64,000 nt of DNA, taken from contig NZ_KI440837.1 of the NCBI RefSeq assembly GCF_000474945.1, forward strand, positions 1 through 64,000. Reading direction: 5' to 3'. This DNA comes from Solimonas soli DSM 21787 (GTDB taxonomy: Bacteria > Pseudomonadota > Gammaproteobacteria > Nevskiales > Nevskiaceae). This document shows, piece by piece, positions 30,205 through 45,025 of this stretch. A program made the translations under genes and the position numbers. The first letter of the stretch is position 1. Every line of letters starts with the position of its first letter. The notes under the pieces are model-generated. The model was not told the origin of the DNA, did no database searches, and saw only the letters and a list, made by a program, of their open reading frames with translations.

Positions 30205-30711
<507 letters not shown>

Positions 30712-30740
30712 TTGTTCGCGACAGGCGAGCACCCTATAAT
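30712..30740 (+). promoter_or_regulatory. Promoter of tRNA-Thr
   Basis: TTGTTC (30712-30717), 17 bp spacer, perfect TATAAT (30735-30740). The tRNA begins 12 bp after the -10 box. GC-rich discriminator CGCGCCCC follows the -10, as in stringently controlled tRNA promoters. Confidence 0.85.
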
Positions 30741-30751
30741 TCGCGCCCCTC

Positions 30752-30827
<76 letters not shown>

Positions 30828-30861
30828 TTCAAGGGTCCGCAAGGGTCCATCGCTGTACAGA

Positions 30862-30887
30862 AACCGCGCTTAATGCGCGGTTTTTTC
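30862..30887 (+). terminator. Terminator after tRNA-Thr
   Basis: AACCGCGC, loop TTAAT, GCGCGGTT followed by TTTTTCTT. It lies 35 bp past the tRNA, already inside the integrated element, and would insulate the integrase from the tRNA promoter. Confidence 0.88.
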
Positions 30888-30940
30888 TTGGCTTACGGTT
30901 TTCTGTCGTCCAGTACCGTCCACCAACATCCAGCCCTTGC

Positions 30941-31000
30941 GTCGGGCAACTTGTCGGGCAACATTGGCCCCGCACCACCACTGCGGAAAAGTTGCCCGAC
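30941..31000. promoter_or_regulatory. Arm-type integrase sites, left end
   Basis: GTCGGGCAACTT (30941-30952) is followed 12 bp later by a second GTCGGGCAAC (30953-30962 region) and mirrored by AAGTTGCCCGAC at 30989-31000, a perfect 12-bp inverted copy ending 2 bases before the integrase ATG. Matching direct copies occur at the right end (38994-39012). Likely arm-binding sites of the integrase; the inverted copy over the start could let it repress its own gene (inference). Confidence 0.68.
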
Positions 31001-31002
31001 CC

Positions 31003-32241
31003 ATGAAGAAGCTGACCGACACCTACCTGCGCGCGCTCCGGGCCAAGGCCAGGCCGTACAAGTCGACCCGAGACGGCGGCCTATACGTGGTGGTAATGCC
31101 CACCGGCAGCAAGCTCTGGCGGTTCGGCTACAGCTTCTCCGGCCGGGAAAAGCAGATCAGCCTGGGCCCCTACCCCGATGTTCCTCTGGCTCTTGCCCGG
31201 GAGCGCCGGGACGAAGCACGCCGCCTTCTCGCTGCCGGCATCGATCCAAGCGCCGAGCGCCGCGAGGCCCGTGCCGCAGTCGCGGCGGCGACCATCAATA
31301 CCTTCGAGGCGGTCGCCCGCGAATGGCTGGCGAAGCAGCGCCATCTGGCCCGCGCCACGCATGACAAGGCGCGCATCATGCTTGAGCAGATGGCGTTCCC
31401 ATGGATCGGCGGCCGTCCGATTGGCGAAATCACCGCTCCCGAGTTGCTCGCCGTCGTGCGCCGGGTCGAGGAACGAGGCCGCATCGAGACAGCGCAGCGG
31501 CTCAAGCAACGCTGCGGCCAGATTTTCCGCTACGCCATCGCCACTGGGAGGGCGGAACGTGATCCCTCCGCGGATTTGCGGGGCGCGCTCGCGACGGCGA
31601 AGGTCCGCCATCGCGCCGCCATCACCGAGCCCGACCGCTTCGCCAAGCTGCTGCGCGACCTGGACGGCTATAGCGGCTCTTTCGTGGTTGCTTGCGCCCT
31701 CAGGCTCGCACCATTGCTCTTCGTGCGCCCCGGCGAGCTGCGGCATGCCGAGTGGAGCGAGATCGACCTGTCGGCGGCTGAATGGCGCATACCGGCGTCG
31801 AAGATGAAGATGCGGACCGAGCACGTCGTGCCACTCAGCGAGCAGGCCGTCGCAATCCTGCGCGAATTGCAGCCGTTGACCGGCCATGGCTTGGACCTGA
31901 GGCCCGATGCGCCACGCTACGTGTTTCCCTCTTCGCGCTCACGCCTCAGGCCGATGAGCGAGAACACCGTCAATGCCGCACTGCGCGGCCTCGGCTACAG
32001 CAAGGAACAGGCGACTGGCCATGGCTTTCGGGCCACTGCGTCAACGCTGCTGCATGAGCTGGGCTGGCGATCCGACGTGATCGAGAGACAGCTGGCGCAT
32101 CAAGAGCGCAACGCCATCAAGCGCGCCTACGATCGATCGCAGCACCTGCCCGAGCGCCGCAAGCTGATGCAGTTCTGGGCCGATCATTGCGGCGCCCTGA
32201 AGAGCAACACCGCGAAGCCTGGGCTTTTGCGAGCAGCCTGA
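31003..32241 (+). CDS. int: P4-type tyrosine integrase
   Basis: A 412-aa site-specific recombinase. The N-terminal arm-binding domain (DUF4102-like) shows RDGGLYVVVMPTGSKLWRF in parts and LGPYPDVPLALAR; a core-binding domain spans about 100-195. The catalytic set is complete: R242 (VRPGELRHAEW), H340 and R343 (GHGFRATAS), H366 (QLAHQE) and the nucleophile Y376 (RAYDR). ATG at 31003 is preceded by arm-type repeats rather than a clear Shine-Dalgarno; upstream in-frame starts would read through those repeats. Typical of integrases that use tRNA 3' ends. Confidence 0.95.
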   Translation: MKKLTDTYLRALRAKARPYKSTRDGGLYVVVMPTGSKLWRFGYSFSGREKQISLGPYPDVPLALARERRDEARRLLAAGIDPSAERREARAAVAAATINTFEAVAREWLAKQRHLARATHDKARIMLEQMAFPWIGGRPIGEITAPELLAVVRRVEERGRIETAQRLKQRCGQIFRYAIATGRAERDPSADLRGALATAKVRHRAAITEPDRFAKLLRDLDGYSGSFVVACALRLAPLLFVRPGELRHAEWSEIDLSAAEWRIPASKMKMRTEHVVPLSEQAVAILRELQPLTGHGLDLRPDAPRYVFPSSRSRLRPMSENTVNAALRGLGYSKEQATGHGFRATASTLLHELGWRSDVIERQLAHQERNAIKRAYDRSQHLPERRKLMQFWADHCGALKSNTAKPGLLRAA

Positions 32242-32346
32242 ATACTTACCGCGAAGCCTGGCGGCGGACGACAGCTAGGCATTCGAGCGAATCAGCGACG
32301 TACTTGTCCCACGCCGCTGACTCTGACTCGCAACATGGAGAAAGCC

Positions 32347-32652
32347 ATGAAGCAAGCTGAAAAAGATGGTAACGCGCCGGCGACGGCCGCGCATTCGTTT
32401 GTTCAGTACGCGCCTGGAAAGATCGGCCTATTCAGCGTTCCCGCCGGGATATCCGCCGAAATCGCGCTTGAGCATGCAAGCTGTTTCATCGACTGTGCGG
32501 AAACGCTTTCGCGCATCGTCGCGACGGAAATCGATGATAACGCCGCCGAATCGAACATGGCGCACGCCGCCAAGTATCTCAACGAGATGGGAAAGGCGCT
32601 CATCGATGCCGTGAGTAGTGGACTTCTCCACAAGAATATCGTTGGGGCATAG
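32347..32652 (+). CDS. Small DUF3077-like protein
   Basis: A 101-aa protein. The core GLFSVPAGISAEIALEHASCFIDCAETL matches in style the DUF3077 pattern (LF.V..G....AL..AS.LL..A..L; quoted in parts) of small proteins common in Pseudomonas accessory DNA; function unknown. GGAG 9 bases before ATG 32347 decides this start over ATG 32335. It is the first of three tightly spaced small genes that end at an intrinsic terminator. Confidence 0.65.
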   Translation: MKQAEKDGNAPATAAHSFVQYAPGKIGLFSVPAGISAEIALEHASCFIDCAETLSRIVATEIDDNAAESNMAHAAKYLNEMGKALIDAVSSGLLHKNIVGA

Positions 32653-32654
32653 TC

Positions 32655-32945
32655 ATGAAAGCGCGCGACTCCATGTTCACCATGAACGCCAATTACCTCA
32701 TCGCTGACAACGCAACGTCGAGCGCGTTACTGGAAGATGCATTGGCCTTGTCCGAGCCCGCACTTGAGATCGTCAATACTCTGGCGATCGAATTGGGAGA
32801 TAAGGGTTCGCAGACAACCGCCAACCCGGAAGCTGCAGCGCGGATGCTTTGGGGAGCATTCAACATGCTTAGCATGGCGCAGAACATCACGACAGCTGCG
32901 CTGAGCAGGATGAATGCGGCCGAGTCTGCGAAGGTGGAAGGATGA
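32655..32945 (+). CDS. Hypothetical small helical protein
   Basis: 96 aa, mostly alpha-helical by composition (Ala, Leu, Glu, Met). The segment ALLEDALALSEPALEIVNTLA resembles the helical half of the preceding gene, so the two may be related partners. Two bp after the upstream stop; its own stop overlaps the next start (ATGA-type). No function can be assigned. Confidence 0.6.
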   Translation: MKARDSMFTMNANYLIADNATSSALLEDALALSEPALEIVNTLAIELGDKGSQTTANPEAAARMLWGAFNMLSMAQNITTAALSRMNAAESAKVEG

Positions 32946-33223
32946 ACGCCGCCCCTGATCAAGATCAGGTCGAACCTGAGCGCCTGAAGATCGCCATCGA
33001 GGCAGCATGGGAGGCTGAGCAGCTCTGTCTGCGCATGATCGAAATGTGCGGGCTCGATCGGCTCGACTTCCGTGGCATGGCTGCCCGCTTACTGGCGCTC
33101 AGCCGCGCTTCCATGTGGGCGCTCACTGACCCCGATCACGAGCTCGCCGATATCCGCCGGCGGCTTGGCTGCAAGGATTTTGGCAATACCGTCGGTATGA
33201 CCACCGATATTCAATCTGCCTGA
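32942..33223 (+). CDS. Hypothetical small protein
   Basis: 93 aa, with helical stretches IAIEAAWEAEQLCLRMIEM and FRGMAARLLALSRASMWAL. The start overlaps the previous gene by 4 bp, indicating coupling. A terminator follows 9 bp after the stop. Unrecognised. Confidence 0.6.
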   Translation: MNAAPDQDQVEPERLKIAIEAAWEAEQLCLRMIEMCGLDRLDFRGMAARLLALSRASMWALTDPDHELADIRRRLGCKDFGNTVGMTTDIQSA

Positions 33224-33231
33224 CCGCACCA

Positions 33232-33270
33232 CCGCGCGGGGTCTTGGCTGACCTCGCGCGGCGCTTTTTT
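33232..33270 (+). terminator. Intrinsic terminator after the three small genes
   Basis: CCGCGCGGGG and CCTCGCGCGG form a 10-bp stem with one G-U pair and a 10-base loop, followed by CGC and six T (33265-33270). It supports the three short frames upstream being a real operon. Confidence 0.88.
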
Positions 33271-33286
33271 GAGAACGGGGAAGCGG

Positions 33287-33727
33287 ATGGAAAACCAAAG
33301 TCGACTGAATCAGAAGCGCATCCTGCTCTTTGCTGTCATAGCAACGAGCATTGCTGTCGCCGTCGCCTTGTTCGCGCACTATCGCGCAAGGCCTGACAAG
33401 GGCGTTATGTATCGCTACGCCTTAAGTAAGTTAAGCGACGATGAAATCCGCATGTTGGCGGCGCGAGCCCATAGCGATTGGATTCAAAGGCGCAATGCCA
33501 ATGTCGCAGCAGCCGCACGCAGCGACGAACAACGTGCTCGCTCGTTTGAACGCTGCCAAGACGCGGCCTACAGGCTCCGGCATGAGAATGAGTGTTCGCC
33601 GCGCACGCCCCTCTTTACGGAGGGACTTCCTGAACCAACTGAAAGCGATCTTCTCTACCAAGCGATTCTTGGCCCATGCCTCATCGCATCAACAATATGG
33701 GAGGCTCGGACATGGGGGTGTCTGTGA
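33287..33727 (+). CDS. Hypothetical single-pass membrane protein
   Basis: 146 aa. A basic N-terminus (MENQSRLNQKR) precedes one hydrophobic helix, about residues 12-31 (ILLFAVIATSIAVAVALFAH), then a soluble, Arg-rich, helical domain with three or four Cys near the C-terminus (AILGPCLIASTIW). It is probably an inner-membrane protein with its bulk in the periplasm or cytoplasm; the topology is not clear. GGGGAAG precedes ATG 33287. No family recognised. Position between terminator and alpA marks it as an accessory gene of the element. Confidence 0.55.
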   Translation: MENQSRLNQKRILLFAVIATSIAVAVALFAHYRARPDKGVMYRYALSKLSDDEIRMLAARAHSDWIQRRNANVAAAARSDEQRARSFERCQDAAYRLRHENECSPRTPLFTEGLPEPTESDLLYQAILGPCLIASTIWEARTWGCL

Positions 33728-34236
33728 AGCCGCATAGACGAGCCATTACCGTTCTATCCGACATTGAGCCGCTCGACCAAAATGAAGAACGAAAACTTGT
33801 TGAGACACTGCGTAAGGAATGGCTGGATCGCGCTCGAATCGCGATCTTGATTGAGGCAAGAGCTGATCCTTCTTTTGCACGAAAAGCCATAGATGACCTT
33901 GTAGCCTTGGCCGTAGAGAACAGAGACCTCTATTCGCGGCTACGAAAGACGATAAATTCCGGGAAATCGTCTAGACCTTCTTACAGAACAAAGCGTTGGA
34001 ACAAGAACCTGCATGTTGCTTTGGTTCAGAGCTACTTGGGCTCTAAAAGACATCACGAAACCCGTGCCGCTTTGCTTGAATTCCTCGCTAACGCCTGGGG
34101 GCCTATGAGCGTCAAGGCATTTGAGAACCGCCTTTCGAAGGCATTATCTGAGGTCAGTGAAGACGACCTTCCGGAGTTTGTCCGGGAAGATTTTTGCAAG
34201 CTTCGCTCTACTCACAGAAAGAATCCCAAGCGATGA
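33712..34236 (+). CDS. Hypothetical protein of lower GC
   Basis: 174 aa, soluble, charged, largely helical; no motif recognised. ATG 33712 has GGGAGG 7 bases upstream and overlaps the preceding gene by 16 bp. Codon use is visibly AT-richer than the chromosomal neighbours (many codons ending in T or A), pointing to recent transfer. The cargo slot between int and alpA in phage satellites often carries defence or interference genes; that role here is conjecture. Confidence 0.6.
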   Translation: MGVSVKPHRRAITVLSDIEPLDQNEERKLVETLRKEWLDRARIAILIEARADPSFARKAIDDLVALAVENRDLYSRLRKTINSGKSSRPSYRTKRWNKNLHVALVQSYLGSKRHHETRAALLEFLANAWGPMSVKAFENRLSKALSEVSEDDLPEFVREDFCKLRSTHRKNPKR

Positions 34237-34265
34237 GTTAATAAATCAAGGCGAATAGCTAGTCT

Positions 34266-34306
34266 TCCATTCACCGCCGCCATGCGGCACAGCAAAGGTG
34301 AATGGA
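34266..34306 (+). promoter_or_regulatory. Inverted repeat over the alpA ribosome binding site
   Basis: TCCATTCACC (34266-34275) pairs with GGTGAATGGA (34297-34306), a 10-bp perfect stem with a nested small hairpin (CCGC/GCGG). The 3' arm contains the AAAGGTG Shine-Dalgarno of alpA and the alternative ATG at 34302. It could be an operator for AlpA or its repressor, or an RNA hairpin that hides the start. Confidence 0.6.
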
Positions 34307-34307
34307 T

Positions 34308-34517
34308 ATGGATGCGAAGACCCCAAGCCTTGACCGACTCGTCCCTCCGTCCGAGGGCATGAAGATCGTCGGCGTTCGATCGCCTACGTCGTACTACAAC
34401 CTGATCAAGCTCGGCGAGCTTCCCCCGCTGATTAAGCGCGGACGCAACTCCTTCCATCTCGAAAGCGATCTGCTGGCATATGTGCGCCGGCTGGCTTCCA
34501 CGCGCATCGCTGCCTAA
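34308..34517 (+). CDS. alpA: AlpA-family excisionase/transcriptional activator
   Basis: A 69-aa winged-helix/MerR-like DNA-binding protein. VGVRSPTSYYNLIKLGELPPLIKRGRNS (in parts) is the AlpA/Xis helix-turn-helix plus wing, and FHLESDLLAYVRRLA the C-terminal helix. AlpA proteins activate integrase expression and excision in P4-like elements and are the master regulators in Gram-negative PICIs. ATG 34308 is favoured by spacing to AAAGG; ATG 34302 would be too close. Confidence 0.85.
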   Translation: MDAKTPSLDRLVPPSEGMKIVGVRSPTSYYNLIKLGELPPLIKRGRNSFHLESDLLAYVRRLASTRIAA

Positions 34518-34527
34518 GGAGTCCGCC

Positions 34528-34806
34528 ATGGCTGGAATTGGTAGCGGCATTCAAAATTCACTTGGTCATCGCACCCTTCGACATGTTCTCGGTGACAGCG
34601 GCTATCGCCAAATGTCGCGGGTGGCCGATCCCGGGAATCTGTTCGGAGGCGCCACACCACCGCCGCCGCGCCCTGATCCGGTTGTGCCGATGCCGGATGA
34701 AGAAGCGTTGGCGGCCGCGAAGCGGCGCTCCATTGCTCAGCAGCGTGCCCGTGGTGGCCGCGCCAATACCATCTTGTCTGATGGCAACAGCGAGACGCTG
34801 GGCTAA
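34528..34806 (+). CDS. Small Pro-rich, phage-type protein
   Basis: 92 aa. The centre is proline-rich (TPPPPRPDPVVPMPD), followed by a basic helix AAAKRRSIAQQRARGGRANTIL and a C-terminal ETLG. The GGRANTILS.G...LG ending resembles short proteins in podovirus structural regions, where GRASTIL-type tails occur; the resemblance is from memory. AAGGAG lies 7 bases before the ATG. It starts 10 bp after alpA and ends 3 bp before the primase. Confidence 0.6.
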   Translation: MAGIGSGIQNSLGHRTLRHVLGDSGYRQMSRVADPGNLFGGATPPPPRPDPVVPMPDEEALAAAKRRSIAQQRARGGRANTILSDGNSETLG

Positions 34807-34809
34807 CTA

Positions 34810-35619
34810 ATGCGAGTCCCTTGGACATCGCTCCCGGACGGCAACTCGCGCGCGACCTGCCCGAATTGCGGGAAAGGGCCAAAGGACAAGACGCTTGGGG
34901 TGACGATCACCCATGAGAAGGGCATCGCGCACTGCTTCCGCTGCAATCACGTCGAGCACCGGGACGGCTTGGTCCGCGCGGGTTCGGTGATGCCGATCAT
35001 CCTTGAGCAGAAGCACGAAACCCTGAGCGAGTACTGGCGCGCGCTGTGGGACGCCTGCGACCCGATACACGGTGCCGCCCGCGAGTATCTGCAGGCACGC
35101 AACTGCGTCGTCCCGCCCAAGGATGGACATCTGCGCTGCCACGCAGCCCTCAAGCATCCGAGCGGCCACGTTGGCCCGGCGATGGTGGCGCTGATCACGG
35201 ACCAGGTGACCGGCGAGCCTCTGAGCCTACATCGCACTTGGGTGAAGCCGGATGGCAGGAAAGCCACCGATCCGCCCCGTCTGTTGATCCCGAACCATCG
35301 CAAGCAGGGCGGCGTCGTGCGTCTCTGGCCCAACGAGGCCGTGACGCATGGACTGGGAATCGCCGAGGGTATCGAGACTGCCCTGAGCCTCGCGCACGCC
35401 TTTACACCGGTCTGGGCGCTGATTGACGCAGGCAATCTCAAGGAGTTCGGCCCACTGCCCGGCATCGAGGCCCTGACCATTGCGGTCGACCATGATGCGG
35501 CCGGCATTAGCGCTGCTGAGGACTGCGCGCTGAGGTGGATCGAAGCGGGTGCCGAGACGCGCTTCATCATGTCGCCAACGACGAAAGGCGACATCAACGA
35601 CATGGCGGTAGCCGCATGA
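34810..35619 (+). CDS. Zinc-finger/Toprim primase
   Basis: A 269-aa DNA primase-like protein. The N-terminal zinc ribbon has C17, C20 (ATCPNCG) and C42, C45 (HCFRCNH). The Toprim domain has the Glu loop GIAEGIETALSLAHAF (E186, E189) and the DxD-type AVDHDAAG (D227, D229). It would make primers for replication of the excised element. Its stop overlaps the helicase start (ATGA), so primase and helicase are coupled, as in the pri-rep modules of satellites. Confidence 0.88.
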   Translation: MRVPWTSLPDGNSRATCPNCGKGPKDKTLGVTITHEKGIAHCFRCNHVEHRDGLVRAGSVMPIILEQKHETLSEYWRALWDACDPIHGAAREYLQARNCVVPPKDGHLRCHAALKHPSGHVGPAMVALITDQVTGEPLSLHRTWVKPDGRKATDPPRLLIPNHRKQGGVVRLWPNEAVTHGLGIAEGIETALSLAHAFTPVWALIDAGNLKEFGPLPGIEALTIAVDHDAAGISAAEDCALRWIEAGAETRFIMSPTTKGDINDMAVAA

Positions 35620-37001
35620 TCGACGCCGCCACGCAGGAGCGATTTGGCCGCAATCGTGAAGTGATCCGCGAGTTGGTCAGCAACACCGTGCCGATCCGGC
35701 GCAACCTCGTTGCCTCCAATGTCGTCGTAGGCGACAACGACGACACGACGACGCGACGGCTCAAGTGGGAATGGGCGACCGACGAAACTGCCCGCGACGT
35801 TCCCGACGAGCTCGTGCAAGGCCTCTTGGTCCGTGGCGGCGTGTCCCTGCTGTACGGCGACAGCAACTCAGGCAAAACTTTCCTCGCACTCGATATCGCC
35901 GCCGCTGTCGCCCGGGGCGCGCAGTGGTTCGATCGCCACGTAGAGCCCGGCCTTGTCGTCTACCTTGCCAGCGAATCGCCGGCCTCGCCGCGCACGCGCC
36001 TGCAGGCTTACCGGACTGCATTCAAATGCGAGACCCCGAACATCGTCATCGTTTCGTCGCCGGTCGATCTGTTCAACGGCGACGGCGACAAGGATGACAT
36101 CGTAAACCTGGTCAAGGAGATCGAGGGCAAAACCCACAAGACGTGCCAGTTCATCATCGCCGACACGCTGGCCAGAGTCAGCGCCGGTGCCAATGAGAAC
36201 AGCGGCGAGGACATGGGTCGCGTTATCAAGCGCGTTGATGCGCTCAGGGAAGCGACCGGCGCGCACGTCATGCTGATCCACCACGCAGGCAAGGACCAGG
36301 CTAAAGGCGCCCGCGGTTGGTCAGGCCTGCGGGCCGCTGTCGACACCGAGATCGAGGTCACGGCCGACGACGCCACCGGACTGCGCTGCGCTGAAGTCAC
36401 CAAGCAGCGCGATATCGCCGGCAAAGGCACGCGCATTGGTTTCCAACTTGAGCAAGTGAACTTGGGAACGACCAAGTGGGGCGAGCCGTTTACGAGTTGC
36501 GTCGTGCAGCCAACCAACGCTCCGGTCAAGCAGACGAGGAACAAACGCGTCAGTGAGATCGGCGGCGCGATCGTGGAGTTTCTCAGCCAAGGCGACACGG
36601 CGGTGAAGCGGACCAATGTCGTCAACCACATCGTTGAGTCGCATGGGTGCCTCCGCCAGTCGGTCTACAAGCAGATCGAGGCCTTGAAGGCGGCTGGCCG
36701 CCTTATTGAGTTTGCTGGCGCCGTCAGACTCGTGAAGGAAACCGCGATGTCGCCGGAGGCCGATCGGCGACAAGGCGACACAGCGACGCCCGTCCACAGG
36801 CCAGCGACGATGACAGAGGGGATAGCCGCAAGTGATGCGAGCAGTAACCCAGAAGATTTGTCGCCAATGTCGCCAACTGTAGCCCAGGCGACAAATGGCG
36901 ACAGCAGACAGACCGAAGTGCAGATGTCGCCAATGTCGCCTCTCCCCTATAGGGGAGGCGACAAAGGCGACAACACGGAGCCGCGCGCCAATGTCTCTTA
37001 A
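35616..37001 (+). CDS. RepA-type hexameric replicative helicase (AAA_25)
   Basis: 461 aa. RecA-fold ATPase with Walker A GDSNSGKT (residues 81-88), Walker B FIIADTLARV, and HHAGKDQAKGARGWSGLRAAVD (in parts), typical of RSF1010 RepA/AAA_25 helicases. A winged-helix-like segment lies about 310-370. The last 90 residues are low-complexity with repeated MSPMSP because the DNA there is an iteron-like array (36748-36972). ATG 35616 overlaps the primase stop. It probably unwinds the element's own origin. Confidence 0.88.
   Translation: MIDAATQERFGRNREVIRELVSNTVPIRRNLVASNVVVGDNDDTTTRRLKWEWATDETARDVPDELVQGLLVRGGVSLLYGDSNSGKTFLALDIAAAVARGAQWFDRHVEPGLVVYLASESPASPRTRLQAYRTAFKCETPNIVIVSSPVDLFNGDGDKDDIVNLVKEIEGKTHKTCQFIIADTLARVSAGANENSGEDMGRVIKRVDALREATGAHVMLIHHAGKDQAKGARGWSGLRAAVDTEIEVTADDATGLRCAEVTKQRDIAGKGTRIGFQLEQVNLGTTKWGEPFTSCVVQPTNAPVKQTRNKRVSEIGGAIVEFLSQGDTAVKRTNVVNHIVESHGCLRQSVYKQIEALKAAGRLIEFAGAVRLVKETAMSPEADRRQGDTATPVHRPATMTEGIAASDASSNPEDLSPMSPTVAQATNGDSRQTEVQMSPMSPLPYRGGDKGDNTEPRANVS
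36748..36972. repeat. Iteron-like array, candidate replication origin
   Basis: Heptamer TGTCGCC at 36748, 36859, 36868, 36925 and 36934, and its complement GGCGACA at 36766, 36774, 36887, 36897, 36957 and 36966. The last eight form two sets of head-on pairs: two forward copies 9 bp apart face two reverse copies 9-10 bp apart. The second set encloses a perfect 16-bp palindrome CTCCCCTATAGGGGAG (36942-36957). All of it lies in the 3' end of the helicase gene. Spacing near one helical turn and ordered orientation argue for protein binding. Confidence 0.7.
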
Positions 37002-37078
37002 CGAGCCCCTTTTCTTATCAGCAGTGGCGCTTCTCGTGCTCTGCCTGCTGCCTCCGACTAGTCGATAGAAGATCTGCA

Positions 37079-37567
37079 ATGAACGAACACTTGGAAGAGC
37101 TTGTTGACGTTATCAAGGGTATCTCCCAGTACACGCCCATCTGGCGTGGAAAAGCGGTCCATCTCATGAAGATGATCCCGGAGATCGCCACATCACCACT
37201 CCTGCCTGGGACTTGGATGACGGACGAACAGGCGTTCGTGAACTCACTCCGAATCCCCGAAGTGGTCGGGGCTCTGAGTGTTCAGAACATCCATATCTGG
37301 AAGGGCTCCGATGGCCTGATACGCCTTGTGGTCACGAATCCGAACCGGTTCATGACGCCGACGCAGATTCAGACTCTGGTCGCACCGCCGCTGCCCGGCG
37401 GGGTCCGATGCAAGTATTGCGGAATGAATGAGGATCGGACGCCCGAAGAGCTGCAGCCCTATTGTGGGATAGGCCAATCAACTGGCGAGGGTCTCGTGCA
37501 CCCACAATGCACTTATGGCTGGCGCAATGCCTTGATCCTGGCCAAGCGGCAGGCAAAGGCCGCCTGA
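37079..37567 (+). CDS. Hypothetical protein with C-terminal Cys cluster
   Basis: 162 aa. The C-terminal 60 residues have VRCKYCGMNEDR, then QPYCGIG and HPQCTYGWRNAL, which could bind zinc in a Cys3-4/His arrangement. The N-terminal 100 residues are alpha/beta in composition with no known motif. It follows the helicase by 77 bp and its stop shares one base with the next start. Possibly a structural or head-associated satellite gene; unassigned. Confidence 0.55.
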   Translation: MNEHLEELVDVIKGISQYTPIWRGKAVHLMKMIPEIATSPLLPGTWMTDEQAFVNSLRIPEVVGALSVQNIHIWKGSDGLIRLVVTNPNRFMTPTQIQTLVAPPLPGGVRCKYCGMNEDRTPEELQPYCGIGQSTGEGLVHPQCTYGWRNALILAKRQAKAA

Positions 37568-38103
37568 TGTCAGAGCTCTCAACTACGAGCTCGCGCGGGA
37601 AGGCTCCGGCCTCTCCTGAGGACATGACGCCGGCAGATATTGCCGAAGCGCTTCTTAATCCTTTGGCGGCGGGCGCCCGGTCTGCTCAGCTTTTCAGCTT
37701 GTCGGAGGAGGTTCTTGATCAGAAAGCGGTCATGAACGAACTGATCGCGCAGACCAAAGCGGTTCATGGGGGCGATCTTTCTCGGCTGGAGACGATGCTT
37801 ACTGTGCAGGCCCATAGCCTGGACGCCGTGTTCAACGCCATGCTCAGGAAGGCGAATCAAAACCTCGGCGAATACCTCCCCGCGGCAGAGACCTATCTGC
37901 GTCTGGCTCTCGAAGCTCAAGCTCAGAGTCGGGCCACCGCTGAGTCCCTAGCAATCCTCAAGAATCCGGCGCCGTTCACCTTCGTCCGACAGACGAATAT
38001 CGGGAACGCAGTGCAGATTAACGCGGGGGGCGCGCAACATCGGCCTGAGCCTGCCTCAGGGGAAAGCGCGGTTGTGCCTTTCGAGGCCGCTCGACAAGGC
38101 TGA
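37567..38103 (+). CDS. Hypothetical protein upstream of small terminase
   Basis: 178 aa, helical (LIAQTKAVHGGDLSRLETML; LEAQAQSRATAESLA), ending in FVRQTNIGNAVQINAGGAQ. Proteins with this helical build and Asn/Gln-rich end sit directly ahead of small terminase genes in other phage-derived DNA, from memory. TGATG overlap with the upstream gene; 3 bp before the terminase. Function unknown. Confidence 0.6.
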   Translation: MSELSTTSSRGKAPASPEDMTPADIAEALLNPLAAGARSAQLFSLSEEVLDQKAVMNELIAQTKAVHGGDLSRLETMLTVQAHSLDAVFNAMLRKANQNLGEYLPAAETYLRLALEAQAQSRATAESLAILKNPAPFTFVRQTNIGNAVQINAGGAQHRPEPASGESAVVPFEAARQG

Positions 38104-38106
38104 TCC

Positions 38107-38733
38107 ATGCCTGTGCTCTCCAACCCTCGTCATGAGCTGTTTGCCCAAGAAGTAGCGAAGGGGCAGTCACAGCGTGCCGCCTATCGTGCCGCTGGCTACG
38201 ACACCGAATCCGACGACGCTACGGATGCGGCGGCATCCAGGCTGGTAAGCGACGTTAGGGTTTCGGCGCGGATCACCGAGATCCAAAGCGAGGCCGCCAA
38301 GGTGGCAGAAATGACTGCGCAAAGGATTTTCCTGGCGTGGTCCAAGATCGCCACGGCCGATATCCGCAAGGTCGCTAAATGGAGCAATCAGGAACGCCTC
38401 ATCGACGGAGAAGACGGCAAGGTTCGCGTGGAGAGTGAGGTGCTGTTCATCCCCAGCAATGAACTAGACGACGACACCGCCGCCGCCATTGCCGAAGTGA
38501 GTCACGGCAAGAACGGCCTGCGGGTCAAGATGCATGACAAGGTTTCCGCTCTCGCGAACATGGCTCGCTATCTCGGGATGTTCACGGACAAGGTCCAGCA
38601 CACGGGAAAGGACGGCGAGCCGCTGATACCGCCTCTGGGTGATATCGACTTGGCGAAGGCGATCTGTTTTGCCCTCGAAGCAGCTGTGAAGAAAGCCAAA
38701 GAATCCGCTCAGCCCGAAGCGGACAAGCCGTAG
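38107..38733 (+). CDS. Phage terminase small subunit
   Basis: 208 aa of the Terminase_2 type. The N-terminal helix-turn-helix reads LFAQEVAKGQSQRAAYRAAGY and continues into AASRLVSDVRVSARITEIQ; a central region (TADIRKVAKW, IAEVSHGKNGLRVKMHDKVSALANMARYLGMF in parts) is typical of small terminases. TerS recognises pac DNA and recruits the large subunit. No large subunit follows, which is the hallmark of satellites that redirect a helper phage's packaging motor. Confidence 0.85.
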   Translation: MPVLSNPRHELFAQEVAKGQSQRAAYRAAGYDTESDDATDAAASRLVSDVRVSARITEIQSEAAKVAEMTAQRIFLAWSKIATADIRKVAKWSNQERLIDGEDGKVRVESEVLFIPSNELDDDTAAAIAEVSHGKNGLRVKMHDKVSALANMARYLGMFTDKVQHTGKDGEPLIPPLGDIDLAKAICFALEAAVKKAKESAQPEADKP

Positions 38734-38749
38734 CACACAGGAAATCAAC

Positions 38750-38941
38750 ATGCCCCGCCTTCCAGACGCAACCATCTTGGGCCGTCGCCCTGCTCCGCAA
38801 CCCGATTTGTCGATCGTCAGGCCTGCCGACCGTAGCTCGGTAGGTCGCTTGCCGCAGGCGCAACTTTCGCGCGAAGTGCTCTTCATGCGCGCGACCGTGC
38901 GACCGTTCGTCGGAAAGATCAGGAAAGAATACTCGCCATGA
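38750..38941 (+). pseudogene. N-terminal fragment of a phage virion protein
   Basis: 63 aa. The start RLPDATILGRRPAPQPD followed by SIVRPADRS resembles the N-terminus of podovirus-type internal/injection proteins (RLP...LG.RP.P), a comparison from memory. The similarity stops after about 35 residues and the frame ends soon after, near the right end of the element. A weak GGAAATCAAC precedes the ATG. It reads as a truncated gene left by a recombination that removed the virion module. Confidence 0.5.
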
Positions 38942-38993
38942 TCGGCGAGCGGCCAAGGCCGCAGACATGATTCTTGGGGGAGCCCAGCCAATT

Positions 38994-39012
38994 TCGGGCA
39001 ACTTTTCGGGCA
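38994..39012 (+). promoter_or_regulatory. Arm-type integrase sites, right end
   Basis: TCGGGCAACTT (38994-39004) and TCGGGCA (39006-39012), 12 bp apart in the same orientation, repeat the arrangement at 30942-30960. A 12-bp palindrome CCGTGGCCACGG follows at 39019-39030. Confidence 0.68.
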
Positions 39013-39071
39013 GATAGTCCGTGGCCACGGGCAAAAACATTTCTGAATCAATAGGGAAAGGCCGCTTTTGC

Positions 39072-39083
39072 ATTCCTGTTCCC
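39072..39083 (+). repeat. attR core repeat
   Basis: ATTCCTGTTCCC, the second copy of the tRNA-Thr 3' segment. It marks the right boundary; DNA beyond it (39084 on) contains a terminator that probably belonged to tRNA-Thr before integration. Confidence 0.7.
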
Positions 39084-39101
39084 ACCATGGGACCCATGCC
39101 A

Positions 39102-39131
39102 AAGCCCCGATACCTTCGGGGCTTTTGTATT
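39102..39131 (+). terminator. Terminator beyond the element, original tRNA-Thr or dnaE2 terminator
   Basis: AAGCCCCGA, loop TACC, TTCGGGGCTT followed by TTGTATTT on the plus strand; on the minus strand the stem is followed by TGG, so it works best rightward. It is 20 bp after attR and 12 bp from the dnaE2 stop. Confidence 0.75.
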
Positions 39132-39142
39132 TCCGGCTGCCG

Positions 39143-42100
39143 TCAGTGGAAATCGCGCGACAGGTACGGCAGGCCGTCGATCCACCGCGAGCGGTCGGCA
39201 AAGCGCTCGGCGAGCACGTGGATCACCCAGCCCCTGTCGGCCGACCCCTGCTTCTGCAGCCGGCCCCTGGCGATCAGGAAGCGGCCACCGATGATCGCCT
39301 CGCGCTCGGCCTCGATCAGCTGCGGGCGCACGATCAGGTTGACGATGCCGGTCTCGTCCTCGAGCGTGACGAAGACGACGCCGCTCGCCGAGCCCGGCCG
39401 CTGGCGGAACATCACCATGCCGGCGACGCGCACGGTCTGGCCGTCCTCGAAATCGGCGAGGCTGCCGTTCGGCACGATGCGCTGGCGCTCGAGCGTGTCG
39501 CGCAGGAAGGCGACCGGATGCCGGCGCAGGCTCAACTCGGTCGTCCGGTAATCGGCGTGGACGGCCTCGCCTTCCGTGGGTTCGCGCAGCAAGGCCGGCT
39601 CGTCGGGCAGTACGGCCTCGCGCAGCACGCCGTCGAGCGCCGCGTGGCCGCGCGTCTTCCAGCGCGCCTGGAAGCGATGCCCGGCCAGCGATGCCAGCGC
39701 ATCGGCCGCCGCCAGCAGGTCGAGTTCGCGCGCCGACAGCGCGGCGCGGCGCGCGAGATCGTCGAGGTCGGCAAACGTGCGCGTCGCGCGCGCGGCGGCG
39801 ATGCGCTGCGCGGCCGCCTCGTTGAAGCCCTTCACCAGCCGCAGGCCGAGGCGGATCGCCGCGCATCCCTGCGCATCGCGTTCGAGATGGCAGTCCCAGC
39901 GGCTCGCCTGCACGTCGATCGCGCGCACCTCGACGCCCATGCGCCGCGCCTCGCCGACCAGCATCGATACCGGATAGAAACCCATCGGCTGCGCATTGAT
40001 GAGGCCGCAGACGAAGGCGGCCGGCCGATGCCGCTTGAGCCAGGCGGACTTGAAGGCGAGCAAGGCGAAGCTCGCCGCGTGGCTCTCCGGAAAGCCGTAG
40101 GAGCCGAAGCCTTCGATCTGCTTGAAGATGCGCTCGGCGTATTCCTGGCTGTAGCCCTTGGCGTCCATGCCGGCCATCAGTTCGTCGCGGAACTTGTCGA
40201 CGTGGCCGTTGCGCTTCCACGCCGCCATCGCGCGGCGCAGCGCATCGGCGCGGCTCGCCGAAAAACCGGCGGCGACCATCGCGATCTGCATGACCTGCTC
40301 CTGGAAGATCGGCACGCCGGAGGTGCGTTTGAGCACGCTCTTGATCGGATCATCGGGACCGAGCGGATACCGGATGTCATCCGGGTCCATATGCCGCTGC
40401 TTGAGATACGGATGCACCATGCCGCCCTGGATCGGCCCCGGCCGCACGATGGCGACCTGCACCGTCAGGTCGTACTGACACTTCGGCCGCAGGCGCGGCA
40501 GCATCGTCATCTGCGCGCGCGATTCGATCTGGAACACGCCGATCGTCTCGGCCTTGCAGATCATGTCGTAGGTTTCCCGTGTGAGCCGATCCTCGTCGTA
40601 GCCGCGATCGCGGATGTCGCGATAGTCGATCCGCTCGCCGAACTCGCGCAGCAGCGCCAGCATCTTGCGCAGCGCGGTGAGCATGCCGAGGGCGAGCACG
40701 TCGACCTTGAGCAGACCCAGCGTCTCGAGATCGTCCTTGTCCCACTGGATGATCGTGCGATCCTGCATCGCCGCGTTCTCGACCGGCACCAGCTCGTGCA
40801 GCGGGCCATCGGAAATGACGAAGCCGCCGACGTGCTGCGACAGATGCCGCGGAAAGCCGCCGTCGCTGGCGAGGATCTGCGCGAGTCGCAGCCATAGCGC
40901 GATGCGCGGCTGCGCCGGATCGACGCCGACGCGGCGCAGCCGCTCGTCGAGCTGGCCCGCATCGTCCCACCAGGCCAGCGACTTGGCGACGCGGTCGACG
41001 ACTTCCTCGCCGATGTCGAGCGCGCGGCCCACGTCGCGCAGCGCCGAACGCGCGCCGTAGCCGATCACCGTCGCCGCGATCGCCGCGCGCTCGCGGCCGT
41101 ACTTGCGGAACACGTACTGGATCACCTCCTCGCGCCGTTCGTGCTCGAAGTCGACGTCGATGTCCGGCTCCTCGTCGCGCTCGGCCGACATGAAGCGCTC
41201 GAACAGCAGATCGTTTCTTTGCGGATCGACTTCGGTGATGCCGAGCACGTAGCAGACCACCGAGTTCGCGGCACTGCCGCGGCCCTGGCAGAGAATGCGG
41301 TGCCTGCGCGCCCATTGCACGATGTCGTGGACCGTGAGGAAGAACGGTTCGTGCTGCTTGCCGGCGATCAGCGCCAGTTCCTTCTCGATCGTGTCGCGGA
41401 TCTGCGGCGCACAGCCGTCCGGCCAGCGCTCGGGCAGATGCCGCTCGACGAGATGGCGCAGCCAGCTCGTCGGCGTGTGGCCGTCGCCGACGATCTCCTG
41501 CGGATAGCAGTATTTCACCGTCTCGATGCGGAACGCGCAGCGCTCGGCGACGCGCAGCGTCTCGTCGAGCAGATCGCGCGGATACAGCGAGGCCAGATCA
41601 TCGAGCGTGCGCAGATGGCGTTCGGCGTTCGGAAACAGGCGATGTCCGCAGCGCGCGACCGGCAGGTGATGGCGCAGCGCCGTCATCACGTCCTGCAAGG
41701 CGCGGCGCTGCGCGATGTGCATGTGCACGTCGCCGCTTGCCACCAGCGGCACGGCGCAGCGCCGGCCGAGGGCGCGCAGCCGCGCCAGCCTGTCGGCGTC
41801 GCTGCCGTCGCGGTGCAGTTCGACAGCGATCCACAAGCGCCCCGCATAACGCTCGCGCAGCCAGGCCAGCGCCTCCTCGTCGCCCTCGCCGCGCGGCAGC
41901 CACAGCAGGCTGCAGTCGACGAGCGAGGCTTCGACGTCTGCGCGCGCCAGCCGGTAGCCGCCTTTCTCGCTCGCCCGCCGCGCCTGCGTGATGACGCGGC
42001 ACAGGTTCGCGTAACCGCTCTTCGTTTCGGCGAGCGCCACGCAGCGCAGGCCGTCGATGAAGTTCAGCTCGCTGCCGATCAGCAGCTCCGGCACCTTGAC

Positions 42101-42298
42101 GCGCGGATCGCGCTCGCGCGCTTCGCGCAGACGTTTCTGTGCCTCGTAGGCGCGCACGACGCCGGCGACCGAGCATTCATCGGTCAGCGCCAGCGCGCCA
42201 TAGCCGAGCGCGCCGGCCTGCGCCATCAGCTCCTGCGGCAGCGAGGCGCCACGCTGGAAGCTGAATGCGGACAAGGCGTGCAGTTCGGCGTAGCCCAT
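39143..42298 (-). CDS. dnaE2: Error-prone DNA polymerase III alpha subunit (DnaE2/ImuC)
   Basis: The catalytic subunit of the SOS mutasome. PHP domain at the N-terminus (YAELHALSAFSFQRGAS, ALTDECSVAGVVRA), polymerase core with the catalytic Asp motif PDIDVDFEHERREE, then helix-hairpin-helix and a C-terminal OB domain (VRVAGMVMFRQRPGSASG). ATG 42298 gives 1051 aa, the DnaE2 size; it follows the imuB stop by 1 base, so the two are coupled. The long open frame upstream to 42514 lies in imuB. The phage satellite's right end is only 60 bp from its stop. Confidence 0.96.
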   Translation of the reverse strand: MGYAELHALSAFSFQRGASLPQELMAQAGALGYGALALTDECSVAGVVRAYEAQKRLREARERDPRVKVPELLIGSELNFIDGLRCVALAETKSGYANLCRVITQARRASEKGGYRLARADVEASLVDCSLLWLPRGEGDEEALAWLRERYAGRLWIAVELHRDGSDADRLARLRALGRRCAVPLVASGDVHMHIAQRRALQDVMTALRHHLPVARCGHRLFPNAERHLRTLDDLASLYPRDLLDETLRVAERCAFRIETVKYCYPQEIVGDGHTPTSWLRHLVERHLPERWPDGCAPQIRDTIEKELALIAGKQHEPFFLTVHDIVQWARRHRILCQGRGSAANSVVCYVLGITEVDPQRNDLLFERFMSAERDEEPDIDVDFEHERREEVIQYVFRKYGRERAAIAATVIGYGARSALRDVGRALDIGEEVVDRVAKSLAWWDDAGQLDERLRRVGVDPAQPRIALWLRLAQILASDGGFPRHLSQHVGGFVISDGPLHELVPVENAAMQDRTIIQWDKDDLETLGLLKVDVLALGMLTALRKMLALLREFGERIDYRDIRDRGYDEDRLTRETYDMICKAETIGVFQIESRAQMTMLPRLRPKCQYDLTVQVAIVRPGPIQGGMVHPYLKQRHMDPDDIRYPLGPDDPIKSVLKRTSGVPIFQEQVMQIAMVAAGFSASRADALRRAMAAWKRNGHVDKFRDELMAGMDAKGYSQEYAERIFKQIEGFGSYGFPESHAASFALLAFKSAWLKRHRPAAFVCGLINAQPMGFYPVSMLVGEARRMGVEVRAIDVQASRWDCHLERDAQGCAAIRLGLRLVKGFNEAAAQRIAAARATRTFADLDDLARRAALSARELDLLAAADALASLAGHRFQARWKTRGHAALDGVLREAVLPDEPALLREPTEGEAVHADYRTTELSLRRHPVAFLRDTLERQRIVPNGSLADFEDGQTVRVAGMVMFRQRPGSASGVVFVTLEDETGIVNLIVRPQLIEAEREAIIGGRFLIARGRLQKQGSADRGWVIHVLAERFADRSRWIDGLPYLSRDFH

Positions 42299-42299
42299 G

Positions 42300-43694
42300 T
42301 CAGCCCCACAGGCCATGCAGGAACCAGCGACCGCCGGCGCGCTCGCGGAACACCCAGACGCGCTGCCGCTGCCATTCGGCGACGTAGTAATCGCGGCGCA
42401 GCTCGCCGCCGTCCCACCAGCCGCTTTCGATGCGCTCGACGTTCGCGTCGACCGCCGGCTCGCCGGGCAAGGGCTGCGGCTGATGCAGCAGCCACAGCGG
42501 TCGCGGCCGCGCACTCACCGTCTGCGCGTCGCCATCGTTGCGCCAGGCGCGCTCCGGACGATGATCAGCCTGCGGCGCCGGCGTCCACAGGACGTGCGCG
42601 CCGAGCCGTGCGGCGATGCGTTCGATCGCCGCCGTCCATTCCGCCTGGCCGCCGCCGCTGTCGAACAGATCGCTCTGCGTGCGCTGCGCGCCGCCGAGCT
42701 CGGTTGCGCGCAGTTCGAGCGCACGCACCGCCGCGCCCAGCGGTTCGCGGCCGAGGCGCTCGTTCAGGCCGTTGAAGATGCGCTTGCCGTCGCGATGCGC
42801 ATCGAGAAAGCGCAAGGTGAAGCTGGTGCGCTGGCGCGCGTGCAGGCAGTCGAGACGCAGGGCGCGCAGCGTCAGGTCGCGTGCGCGCAGCCAGCCCTGC
42901 AGCTCGTAGGCGAGCCGGTGCAGGGGGAATTGCAGCGACTCGAGCTGCTCGACTTCGCCCGGCAGCTCGAAGCGGCGCCGGAAGCGCTCCGGCGGCACGA
43001 TGGCGACGGCCGGCTCGGCGGCTTCGCCATGCAGGCGATCGAGTTCGCGCAGGCGCCCGGCGCCGAAGCGGCGCGCGAAAGCGGCGCGCGGCAGCGCACG
43101 CAGCTCGCCGATGGCCTGCAGGCCGACGCCGCGCAAGGCCTCGATCTGCGCCTGCGGCCACGGCAGCTCGCGAATCGGCCGCGCCGCCAGACGCCGGGCG
43201 AGCGCCGCCGGCCCGCGCACGCGAATGCCGTCGCCGGCACAGGCGAACAGGGCCGCAGCGGCGCGCGTCGGCGCCACCGCCAGCGAGATTCGATGGCGGC
43301 CGGCGGCGAGTTCGGCTTCGATGCCGGCCTGCAACTGCAGATAGCCGCCGAACAGACGCAGGCTCGCCGAGATCTCGAGCCACAGCAGCGCCTGCGGCGC
43401 GCGCCCGGTTTCGTCGAACTCGCGCAGCTCGGCATGCACCGGACTGCCGTAGTGATAGAGCGTGTGGGCAAGGCCTTGCAGCATCGCGCGCTCGGCCTTC
43501 GCATGGCGCGCGTGCGCCCGCAGCAGCGGCTGCAGCGACAGCGCCGTGCCGAGCGGCGTGCCGACGCCGACGCCGGGCGCCGCCGTGATCAGCCAGCGGC
43601 TCGCGCCACGCTGATCGGTGACGACATCGAACTCGCCGTCGAGCCCCAGGGCTTCGGCCGGCAGACGCGGCAGGTGCAGGCACAGCCACAGCAT
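42300..43694 (-). CDS. imuB: ImuB, Y-family polymerase-like mutasome subunit
   Basis: 464 aa. Y-family DNA polymerase fold, but the N-terminus MLWLCLHLPRLPAEAL lacks the catalytic Asp of DinB-type enzymes, as expected for ImuB, which bridges DnaE2 to the beta clamp. RTQSDLF near residue 360 fits a clamp-binding motif. The C-terminal ImuB-specific region ends VWVFRERAGGRWFLHGLWG. ATG 43694 is 7 bp after imuA; the open frame extends upstream through imuA but is Arg/Ser filler there. Confidence 0.94.
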   Translation of the reverse strand: MLWLCLHLPRLPAEALGLDGEFDVVTDQRGASRWLITAAPGVGVGTPLGTALSLQPLLRAHARHAKAERAMLQGLAHTLYHYGSPVHAELREFDETGRAPQALLWLEISASLRLFGGYLQLQAGIEAELAAGRHRISLAVAPTRAAAALFACAGDGIRVRGPAALARRLAARPIRELPWPQAQIEALRGVGLQAIGELRALPRAAFARRFGAGRLRELDRLHGEAAEPAVAIVPPERFRRRFELPGEVEQLESLQFPLHRLAYELQGWLRARDLTLRALRLDCLHARQRTSFTLRFLDAHRDGKRIFNGLNERLGREPLGAAVRALELRATELGGAQRTQSDLFDSGGGQAEWTAAIERIAARLGAHVLWTPAPQADHRPERAWRNDGDAQTVSARPRPLWLLHQPQPLPGEPAVDANVERIESGWWDGGELRRDYYVAEWQRQRVWVFRERAGGRWFLHGLWG

Positions 43695-43701
43695 CGCGAT
43701 C

Positions 43702-44328: not shown

Positions 44329-44346
44329 CGCAGGACTGCGCGCGGA

Positions 44347-44976: not shown

Positions 44977-44991
44977 GGCGGAGTCCGATAA

Positions 44992-45007: not shown

Positions 45008-45025
45008 TATCCATTCGGTCGTCGA

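Follow-up and report, generated by a model that had tools for sequence, protein, structure and literature searches.

We analysed a 64,000-nucleotide stretch of Solimonas soli DSM 21787 (contig NZ_KI440837.1, positions 1 to 64,000; hereafter the window) and found a discrete 8.26-kb mobile element between tRNA-Thr(CGT) and dnaE2. Its genes run in the order integrase, small unassigned ORFs, a weak AlpA-like gene, Toprim primase, RepA-like helicase, two unassigned genes and a small terminase (TerS); the annotated genes share one orientation and have open frames, and no broken gene was noticed. This agrees with the order given by the first-pass annotation (integrase, cargo, AlpA, Toprim primase, RepA, unknowns, lone TerS), with the AlpA assignment being weak. 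The features are listed below by position in the window.

30752..30827, + strand: tRNA-Thr(CGT), the integration target, with the attL core ATTCCTGTTCCC at 30809-30820
30828..30897, + strand: sequence directly 3' of the tRNA, island-borne, with a terminator-like hairpin (by eye); common to the element of congener G001
30941..31000, both orientations: left candidate arm-type motifs GTCGGGCAAC, three copies, two direct (12 bp apart) and one inverted
31003..32241, + strand: tyrosine integrase (Pfam Arm-DNA-bind_3, Phage_int_M, Phage_integrase)
32335..32652, + strand: small protein, DUF3077 (Pfam)
32655..32945, + strand: small protein, no family assigned (ORF list, Pfam scan)
32942..33223, + strand: small protein, no family assigned (ORF list, Pfam and PHROGs scans)
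33284..33727, + strand: protein with a hydrophobic N-terminal stretch by eye (ORF list, Pfam scan)
33676..34236, + strand: 186-aa protein, no family assigned (Pfam and PHROGs scans)
34302..34517, + strand: weak AlpA-like HTH regulator or excisionase (HTH_17, phrog_9834)
34528..34806, + strand: small protein, no family assigned (mechanical ORF start 34480)
34810..35619, + strand: primase (DUF7146 and Toprim_3)
35616..37001, + strand: RepA-type helicase (AAA_25), whose start overlaps the primase stop in ATGA (mechanical ORF start 35535)
36748..36972, alternating orientation: candidate iteron cluster, 11 copies of GGCGACA, at the 3' end of repA
37079..37567, + strand: u37079, 162-aa protein, no family assigned (Pfam and PHROGs scans)
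37567..38103, + strand: u37567, 178 aa, unnamed conserved family of small islands (mechanical ORF start 37462)
38107..38733, + strand: lone terminase small subunit, TerS (Terminase_2; phrog_51)
38994..39013, + strand: right candidate arm-type motifs, the tandem pair TCGGGCAACTTTTCGGGCAG with a period of 12 bp; the attR core lies 78 bp after its start
39072..39083, + strand: attR core ATTCCTGTTCCC, followed by ACCAT, with the GGC of the tRNA end missing
39101..39125, + strand: terminator-like hairpin immediately past attR; the attR of G001 has a similar one outside it

The 12-bp core ATTCCTGTTCCC is identical at both ends (30809 and 39072); when words of 12 to 60 bp beginning anywhere in 30700-30960 were searched for on the plus strand, none gave a longer exact match. 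By itself this repeat is weak evidence, because about one match of such length would be expected by chance in 64 kb, as estimated from its length. The two att sites also align, with gaps, beyond the core, with a score of 15.5 that was the highest among 1,594 plus-strand segments (80 bp in 40-bp steps; mean 7.5, sd 1.5). Four of the five copies of TCGGGCAAC in the 64 kb lie at the element ends, at 30942(+), 30954(+), 30991(-) and 38994(+), and each end carries two tandem copies with a 12-bp period; on the right, the second of these is imperfect. We consider these motifs candidate arm-type sites that the integrase would bind, and the ATG at 31003, just past them, is the more likely integrase start (mechanical ORF start, 30937). 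Two related loci, L103 and L197, have a tandem motif pair 75 and 71 bp inside attR, compared with 78 bp in the window, and repeat it just before int. GC content is 0.56-0.65 across 32-39 kb versus 0.62-0.75 in the rest of the window.

Better support than the 12-bp repeat comes from the arm-type motifs at both ends together with a congener element that shares the tRNA and end layout. This congener (G001) carries a 6.6-kb element whose integrase is 68% identical and whose interior is different; the DNA from the tRNA through int is 71.6% identical to the window over 1,484 bp, and the left arm region has the same motif topology with a different motif. G001 was the only source of a relative of any island protein among 19 stretches from ten congeners, and the only one of this small sample of ten with an integrase of the window type at tRNA-Thr. 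In G008, tRNA-Thr and the next tRNA are 249 bp apart, which leaves 30828-49115 as extra sequence in the window. The alternative of one 18-kb island reaching from tRNA-Thr to tRNA-Ser(GGA) was rejected: in G006 and G007, tRNA-Thr (flipped there) has dnaE2 and adjacent genes alongside, with nothing island-like between, and we accordingly take the satellite to be an insertion of its own that ends at 39083. Taken together, the repeat, arm motifs, G001 layout and GC content bear out the earlier proposal of an 8.3-kb candidate satellite in tRNA-Thr(CGT). Its "clean ends" are only partly right, since the tRNA end is degenerate in its right-hand copy. The displaced chromosomal 3' end at attR lacks GGC, part of the acceptor stem; a clean excision is therefore predicted to leave a damaged tRNA-Thr(CGT), which would select for retention of the element.

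We then considered the replication genes. The primase and RepA helicase matches confirm that the island has a replication module of its own, as previously claimed. RepA matches the RSF1010 RepA structure 1g8y in sequence (E = 1.3e-8), and we favoured a start at 35616 over the mechanical one at 35535. GGCGACA is present in 11 copies within 225 bp, whereas none of 20 first-order Markov sequences had more than 3 in 260 bp; judging from these repeats and their position, the cluster is a candidate iteron replication origin. Relatives often have repeat clusters at the 3' end of repA, mostly with different motifs, and a strong 8-mer cluster fell within -500/+350 bp of the repA stop in 21 of 28 sequences (window included; the loci are not independent), against about 3.6 expected by position.

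The AlpA-like protein matched HTH_17 at E = 9e-4 and 19.9 bits, under the Pfam cut-off of 27, and phrog_9834 at E = 9e-4, and is 46% identical over 61 aa to its G001 homologue. The int-alpA RNA (RF02996) gave no match in the window up to E = 5 and was present in 6 of 14 related loci scanned (L103, L107, L108, L109, L110 and L114); a home-made RNA model (R1) gave only weak matches, none convincing (best 8.3 bits). PADLOC detected no convincing defence cargo among 9 proteins (best E = 0.017), and NCBIfam matches for 10 proteins were all far under cut-off.

A profile of TerS, a relative of the SF6 type, matched solved small terminases, including SF6 (3zqp/2cmp), and its nearest relatives reached at best 46% identity (tblastn). 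Here TerS is followed by the island end, whereas in phage phiLM21 a TerS relative is followed by the large terminase and portal. The reported lack of capsid, portal, large terminase, tail and lysis genes was upheld: besides TerS, no such family was found by Pfam in all 13 island ORFs or by PHROGs in 12 of them (all except 32655-32945). The missing virion genes were not found nearby either, with no virion family in 10 flanking proteins (Pfam) and no match in the whole draft genome (34 contigs) to the two hallmark models used, Terminase_6N (PF03237) and Phage_portal (PF04860). No relative of the window TerS lay within about 1.5 kb of two congener Terminase_6N matches (L202 and L203). Whole-island DNA had no near match among phages and short integrase matches to three plasmids, while the primase and u37462, as single-protein queries, found no relative among viral contigs. 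The u37567 family, encoded just before TerS, was found in small islands and on two Polaromonas plasmids (one typed MOBV), and in none of 50,697 phage records.

Loci with the window-type primase are spread over proteobacteria, and some are prophages. With a search recipe that combines an integrase, a Toprim primase and RepA with repeats at the repA stop and a tRNA repeat, we found five related complete islands of 5.7-12 kb in tRNA genes with exact att repeats, belonging to Burkholderiales, one alphaproteobacterium and one member of the window's class. No large terminase, portal or lysis family was detected in these five among the 61 of 118 ORFs scanned. Exact att duplications span 49 bp in L103 and 46 bp in L197, and 15 of 20 related loci lacked an end repeat of at least 22 bp. 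One complete island (L104) encodes TerS, a major head protein and an HNH-type nuclease, with no large terminase or portal found; a major head protein also occurs on a contig fragment (L110), and a baseplate-hub-like protein in L108. Downstream of its primase-RepA module, L147 has a phrog_2 large terminase; L156 and L122 gave endolysin-type matches, and L115 and L116 appeared prophage-like by eye.

These results suggest that the element is probably an integrated 8.26-kb phage satellite working like a TerS-carrying Gram-negative phage-inducible chromosomal island (PICI) while having a replication module of its own kind, and that its spread most likely relies on hijacked particles of another virus. 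An incoming phage, or its gene product, would activate the AlpA-like regulator; the integrase and an AlpA-type excision factor would recombine the two 12-bp cores, and RepA and primase would replicate the circle from the iterons into multimers. The satellite TerS would then mark satellite DNA at its own pac site and pass it to the helper large terminase, which would fill helper heads. In a new cell, the circle would enter tRNA-Thr and restore the 3' end of the tRNA with the copy that it carries. Points against this reading are the occurrence of the primase-RepA module in prophages as well, TerS relatives of 46% identity at best, the weak AlpA call, the lack of an int-alpA RNA match in the window, the degenerate attR, the 15 of 20 related loci without an end repeat of 22 bp or longer, and the unexplained u37079, u37567 and several cargo ORFs.

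It is unlikely that a full prophage has instead decayed to this element by losing all but TerS of the stretch between its early region and its right end. The primase-RepA module is not exclusive to satellites, given the prophage-type loci L147, L156, L122, L115 and L116, and a deletion just past TerS, normally the first of the late genes, would give the observed order. However, the large terminase, portal, head, tail and lysis genes of a prophage were not recognised in the element, whose genes are open and co-oriented and whose arm motifs are kept at both ends. The five related islands likewise combine exact att repeats with a similar compact plan and no large terminase found, and the small G001 element had no virion gene recognised in 10 proteins (Pfam). 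In the stretches from ten congeners, a small sample searched for relatives of the island proteins, this small island and the 249-bp interval of G008 did not refute the earlier view of a PICI-like plan rather than a decayed prophage, which remains the best reading.

An integrative mobilizable element or plasmid-like island, moving by conjugation or transformation with TerS incidental, is improbable. The resemblance of RepA to RSF1010 RepA, the iteron-like candidate origin and the plasmid-borne u37567 relatives would fit it, yet no island ORF matched a relaxase family (Pfam), a lone intact TerS without adjoining phage genes has no evident use other than packaging, and a related complete island carries TerS together with head and nuclease genes. 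Very improbable is a generic integrative island, immobile through attR decay and with no active transfer: the missing GGC and the predicted harm to tRNA-Thr(CGT) upon excision, with no second near-identical copy in the genome among the 40 of 313 candidates scored, agree with it, whereas integrase, primase, RepA and TerS all keep open frames and the two ends carry identical 12-bp cores.

More tentatively, and with somewhat less than even confidence, the satellite may represent an unnamed, widespread proteobacterial kind of about 6-12 kb, defined by a tRNA target, an arm-type integrase, a Toprim primase with RepA, a fast-changing iteron origin at the repA 3' end and a swappable hijacking slot. 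As part of this same tentative reading, the slot would hold TerS in the window, a head protein and an HNH nuclease besides TerS in L104, and the baseplate-hub-like protein in L108; the u37567 family would serve such elements as a specialised hijacking or packaging factor, and a host whose attR has lost the tRNA 3' end would be bound to the satellite. The first-pass suggestion that a satellite in such a high-GC chromosome extends the known range is fair, tempered by the wide proteobacterial distribution of same-primase loci, some of them prophages. New here are the GGCGACA iteron cluster, the five related tRNA islands and the u37567 family absent from the phage records searched; among the papers listed in literature searches, none dealt with TerS/RepA satellites on this plan. 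Satellites influence phage success and gene movement among bacteria and are known from few groups. This one is small, has well-supported ends and carries a TerS for which a partner large terminase is required, and the comparison yields a search recipe for related islands and one unnamed protein family.

We further compared the element with known systems. The element resembles an RSF1010-type plasmid replicon in its RepA helicase (1g8y), primase and iterons, and differs in having no relaxase family and no recognised RepC and in being integrated in a tRNA gene. P4-like satellites have Sid/Psu/Delta-type capsid and transactivation genes and an alpha-type fused primase-helicase. In the island no protein matched a family described as Sid, Psu or Delta, and the P4-like label of the first-pass annotation was therefore rejected; the primase and helicase are also separate genes, and TerS is present. 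Capsid-forming PICIs have their own capsid and packaging gene set. Two relatives (L104 and L110) share a major head protein with these; the window element has just TerS recognised and no recognised head gene, which sets it apart. Capsid-forming PICIs are mentioned in PMC11389934. P4-like satellites, which PMC6092414 discusses, do share with the element a tRNA target, an arm-type integrase, an AlpA/Vis-like regulator and replication genes of their own.

Gram-negative PICIs are described as having an integrase, a replication module and a transcriptional regulator in conserved order, no structural or lytic phage genes, and an att site never occupied by prophages; they are typically 12-15 kb, with an iteron-type origin next to pri-rep (PMC6092414). 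Like EcCICFT073 and PmCI172 in that description, the element combines an integrase, an AlpA-type regulator and a replication module with a candidate iteron origin, judged here by position and repeats, and its gene order agrees, the regulator being weakly AlpA-like. It also shares the lack of structural and lysis genes, TerS being the only packaging gene recognised and terS being present in some PICIs (PMC6092414). The element differs in its smaller size of 8.26 kb, in its Toprim primase with a separate RSF1010-RepA-like helicase, and in iterons lying inside the repA 3' end. An average PICI size of 9.5 kb is given in PMC10803314. The PICMI of Vibrionaceae are, like the element, very small, with an integrase, alpA and a primase and no capsid-remodelling gene (PMC10803314). 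PICMI adjoin fis, whereas the window element lies in tRNA-Thr beside dnaE2 and is therefore no PICMI, and it has RepA, iterons and TerS, while the main text of PMC10803314 never uses the word "terminase". Given the lack of a capsid-remodelling gene, packaging of the element as multimers in full-size heads, in a PICMI-like manner, is plausible.

An all-plus-strand gene run fills the space between the two genes that border the island:

30752-30827, tRNA-Thr(CGT), left border of the island
39143-42514, minus strand, dnaE2, right neighbour of the island

Domain matches recovered the gene order claimed in the first-pass annotation (integrase, AlpA, Toprim primase, RepA-type helicase and lone TerS), the match of the AlpA-like HTH being weak. 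In full, a tyrosine integrase is followed by small unknowns (one DUF3077), this HTH protein, the primase (DUF7146/Toprim_3), the RepA-type helicase (AAA_25), two unknowns and the TerS (Terminase_2). Among solved structures, the helicase is closest in sequence to 1g8y (E = 1.3e-8; entry title, regulatory protein RepA), the RepA of RSF1010. The TerS profile matches the small terminases 21di, 3zqp and 2cmp (Pam5 and SF6-type), a likeness that points to a pac-type, headful terminase as the likeliest kind. The island is best read as a PICI-like satellite that carries TerS, an RSF1010-RepA-like helicase and, as its candidate origin, a cluster of iterons; it would be transferred inside phage particles.

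Of the exact plus-strand repeats that the tRNA region has within the window, the longest is the 12-bp ATTCCTGTTCCC at 30809 and 39072, a match of a length expected by chance, on length alone, about once per 64 kb. We find it convincing as the island ends because gapped alignment carries the repeat past 12 bp (top score of 1,594 windows), putative arm-type motifs lie at both ends, and a congener, G001, has a like layout. The arm motif TCGGGCAAC has 5 copies in the 64 kb, 4 of them at the two ends, arranged as a direct pair with a 12-bp period on each side and an inverted copy before int; the second right-hand copy is imperfect (final G instead of AC). At the same tRNA, the G001 integrase is 68% identical to that of the island over 424 residues, and the DNA from tRNA through int matches the window at 71.6% over 1,484 bp. 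Its arm motifs, GTGGGTAAC, are unlike those of the window in sequence but the same in topology; a tRNA-end copy is found at a distance of ~6.6 kb, ~78 bp inside it lies a single arm-type copy, and a hairpin outside the right end resembles that of the window. Two positive controls, the islands L103 (exact 49-bp att duplication) and L197 (46 bp), carry tandem motif pairs before int and also inside attR (75 bp in L103 and 71 bp in L197; 78 bp in the window).

The earlier description of clean ends holds only in part: in the attR copy of the tRNA end, ACCAT directly follows the core and GGC, the acceptor-stem completion at attL, is missing. The right tRNA-end copy in G001 lacks one G. No second near-identical tRNA-Thr(CGT) was seen among the 40 of 313 candidates scored in the window's genome, other tRNA matches reaching at most 82% over 55-93 nt. 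Given both the missing GGC and this result, simple excision should damage tRNA-Thr(CGT).

The insertion region was further compared among congeners. In G008, tRNA-Ser(TGA), tRNA-Thr(CGT) and tRNA-Ser(GGA) are grouped, the last two separated by 249 bp. In G006 and G007 dnaE2 and its neighbours adjoin a tRNA-Thr in opposite orientation, and no island proteins were found in the stretches fetched from these two genomes. The island thus appears to be an insertion of its own, at a locus that is rearranged between species. The insertion region (30205-49208) is bracketed by the two tRNA-Ser genes, which face each other, and the tRNA-Thr between them in G001, G003, G006 and G007 is opposite to that in G004, G005, G008, G010 and the window. 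The G001 element (L068 4720-11361, 6.6 kb, same tRNA-Thr) encodes a HigB-like toxin with HTH antitoxin, an AlpA-like protein and two HTH proteins, with no recognised primase or TerS. Directly adjoining the island, 39143-45303 is probably an SOS mutagenesis cassette, with a dnaE2-type polymerase, a LexA-like repressor (44347-45303) and a conserved protein of 588 aa that matches no Pfam family. The chromosomal position of this cassette varies among congeners, and an IS3-like transposase pair (rve, HTH_Tnp_1; 45352-46577) adjoins it.

TerS relatives were found in no other genome among 10 of the genus searched, and that search gave weak matches only, in 3 of its 99 other genomes; primase relatives were found in 1 of 84 other genomes of the order (E up to 1e-3) and 9 of 368 others of the class (E up to 1e-10). 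A primase profile search yielded at least 79 loci from genome contigs and one from a viral contig, mostly Burkholderiales among the top matches listed, with Alphaproteobacteria lower. Of 20 loci checked, five had a tRNA 3' end with direct repeats, 22 to 49 bp long; no end repeats of at least 22 bp were found in the other 15.

Complete islands with end repeats
L103, Ralstonia sp. SET104, tRNA-Lys, 8,084 bp
L104 7624-16309, Burkholderiales MAG, tRNA-Asn, 8,685 bp
L108, Burkholderiaceae MAG, tRNA-Lys, 12,073 bp
L139, Roseomonas MAG, tRNA-Phe, 5,693 bp
L197, member of the window's class, tRNA-Met, 8,552 bp (entered via u37567; RepA match just 24%)

Together these islands have 118 ORFs 100 aa or longer. 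Of these, 61 were scanned with PHROGs alongside 6 window proteins; the scan excluded the ORFs for integrase, primase and RepA and most of the frames that overlap these. None of the 17 families matched in this set was of large-terminase, portal or lysis type; matches included small terminases in the window and L104, a major head protein in L104, a baseplate hub in L108 and a single-strand-binding protein. L104 combines integrase, primase, RepA and TerS with the lone major head protein, and it also has an ORF of an endonuclease family (phrog_452), which we read as HNH type. On two short contigs, L110 and L117, phrog_57 small-terminase-like proteins follow RepA, and L110 additionally encodes a major head protein. 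Against a satellite-only primase-RepA module count a phrog_2 large terminase in L147, endolysin-type matches in L156 and L122, and L115 and L116, which by eye look like prophages. No int-alpA RNA (RF02996) was found in the window element. Six related loci have one between integrase and primase:

L103 8736-8805
L107 7883-7947
L108 7661-7727
L109 8645-8710
L110 1761-1829
L114 8930-8995

As a candidate origin, 11 of the window's 42 copies of GGCGACA lie within 36748-36972, in alternating orientation in the 3' end of repA (against at most 3 per 260 bp in 20 first-order Markov runs). We scanned the window and 80 related loci, 81 sequences in all, for the strongest 8-mer with at least 4 copies in 250 bp, skipping 35 (34 without a recognised RepA ORF, 1 too short). 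Such clusters were present in 28 of the 46 evaluable sequences and absent from 18. In 21 of the 28, including the window, a strongest cluster was centred between 500 bp before and 350 bp after the repA stop, an interval that makes up 12.9% of the searched stretch, and in 7 outside it; the 21 are not independent, since the loci are related to one another. Apart from the pairs L126/L143, L123/L125 and L139/L144, which share a motif, the motif mostly differs between elements, which suggests that RepA-iteron specificity may change fast.

Directly before TerS, the 178-aa u37567 (37567-38103, + strand) had no convincing match in Pfam (best E = 0.056) or PHROG (best E = 0.0076; three relatives, none up to 0.01), one match far below cut-off in NCBIfam and no matching PDB chain. 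Relatives occur in 4 of 80 related loci (L109, L122, L150, L152), 8 of 368 other class genomes and, in a pattern-limited scan, 2 viral contigs. In L197 and L199 the relative ends an integrase-bearing run whose replication genes are distant or different. A tblastn search with the L109 relative (E up to 1e-3) gave no match among 50,697 phage records and 2 among 72,556 plasmids, both small Polaromonas plasmids that additionally encode RepA, ParA and a recombinase; the relatives lie at 4047-4655 of L200 (7.2 kb) and 7883-8497 of L201 (11.2 kb). To assign u37567 to packaging or replication would be a guess. In different bacteria, the u37567-family elements L109 and L191 each adjoin an mnmE-like gene (named by eye), possibly a shared attachment site.

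At E up to 1e-5, TerS relatives were found in 28 of 50,697 phage records, the 20 matches listed including phiLM21 (37.6% over 83% of query), where TerS, large terminase and portal are consecutive, and a Bordetella phage (44% over 57%). The best viral-contig relatives (L005, L006; 44-46%) are overlapped downstream by an ORF that is a large-terminase candidate by size alone. The first-pass annotation had reported virion genes missing from the island. The window's genome had no match to two models, Terminase_6N and Phage_portal, which as controls matched in 6 and 4 of 14 genomes, respectively; Terminase_6N matched in two congeners. By eye, two other integrase loci of the window's genome had no evident phage genes. 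These results suggest that the helper, if any, is probably an incoming phage, the terminase search having covered Terminase_6N. On contig C2 of the same genome, L209 7451-18560 is, by eye, probably another island, its integrase (34% identical to the island's) lying beside a YidC-like gene and followed by what looks like a restriction-modification system.

For comparison with known systems, the available portions of PMC6092414 supplied the PICI criteria and origin layout, and those of PMC10803314 the satellite sizes. Within this partial literature coverage, the portions of these two papers, PMC12595487 and PMC11389934 do not describe the architecture of the window element.
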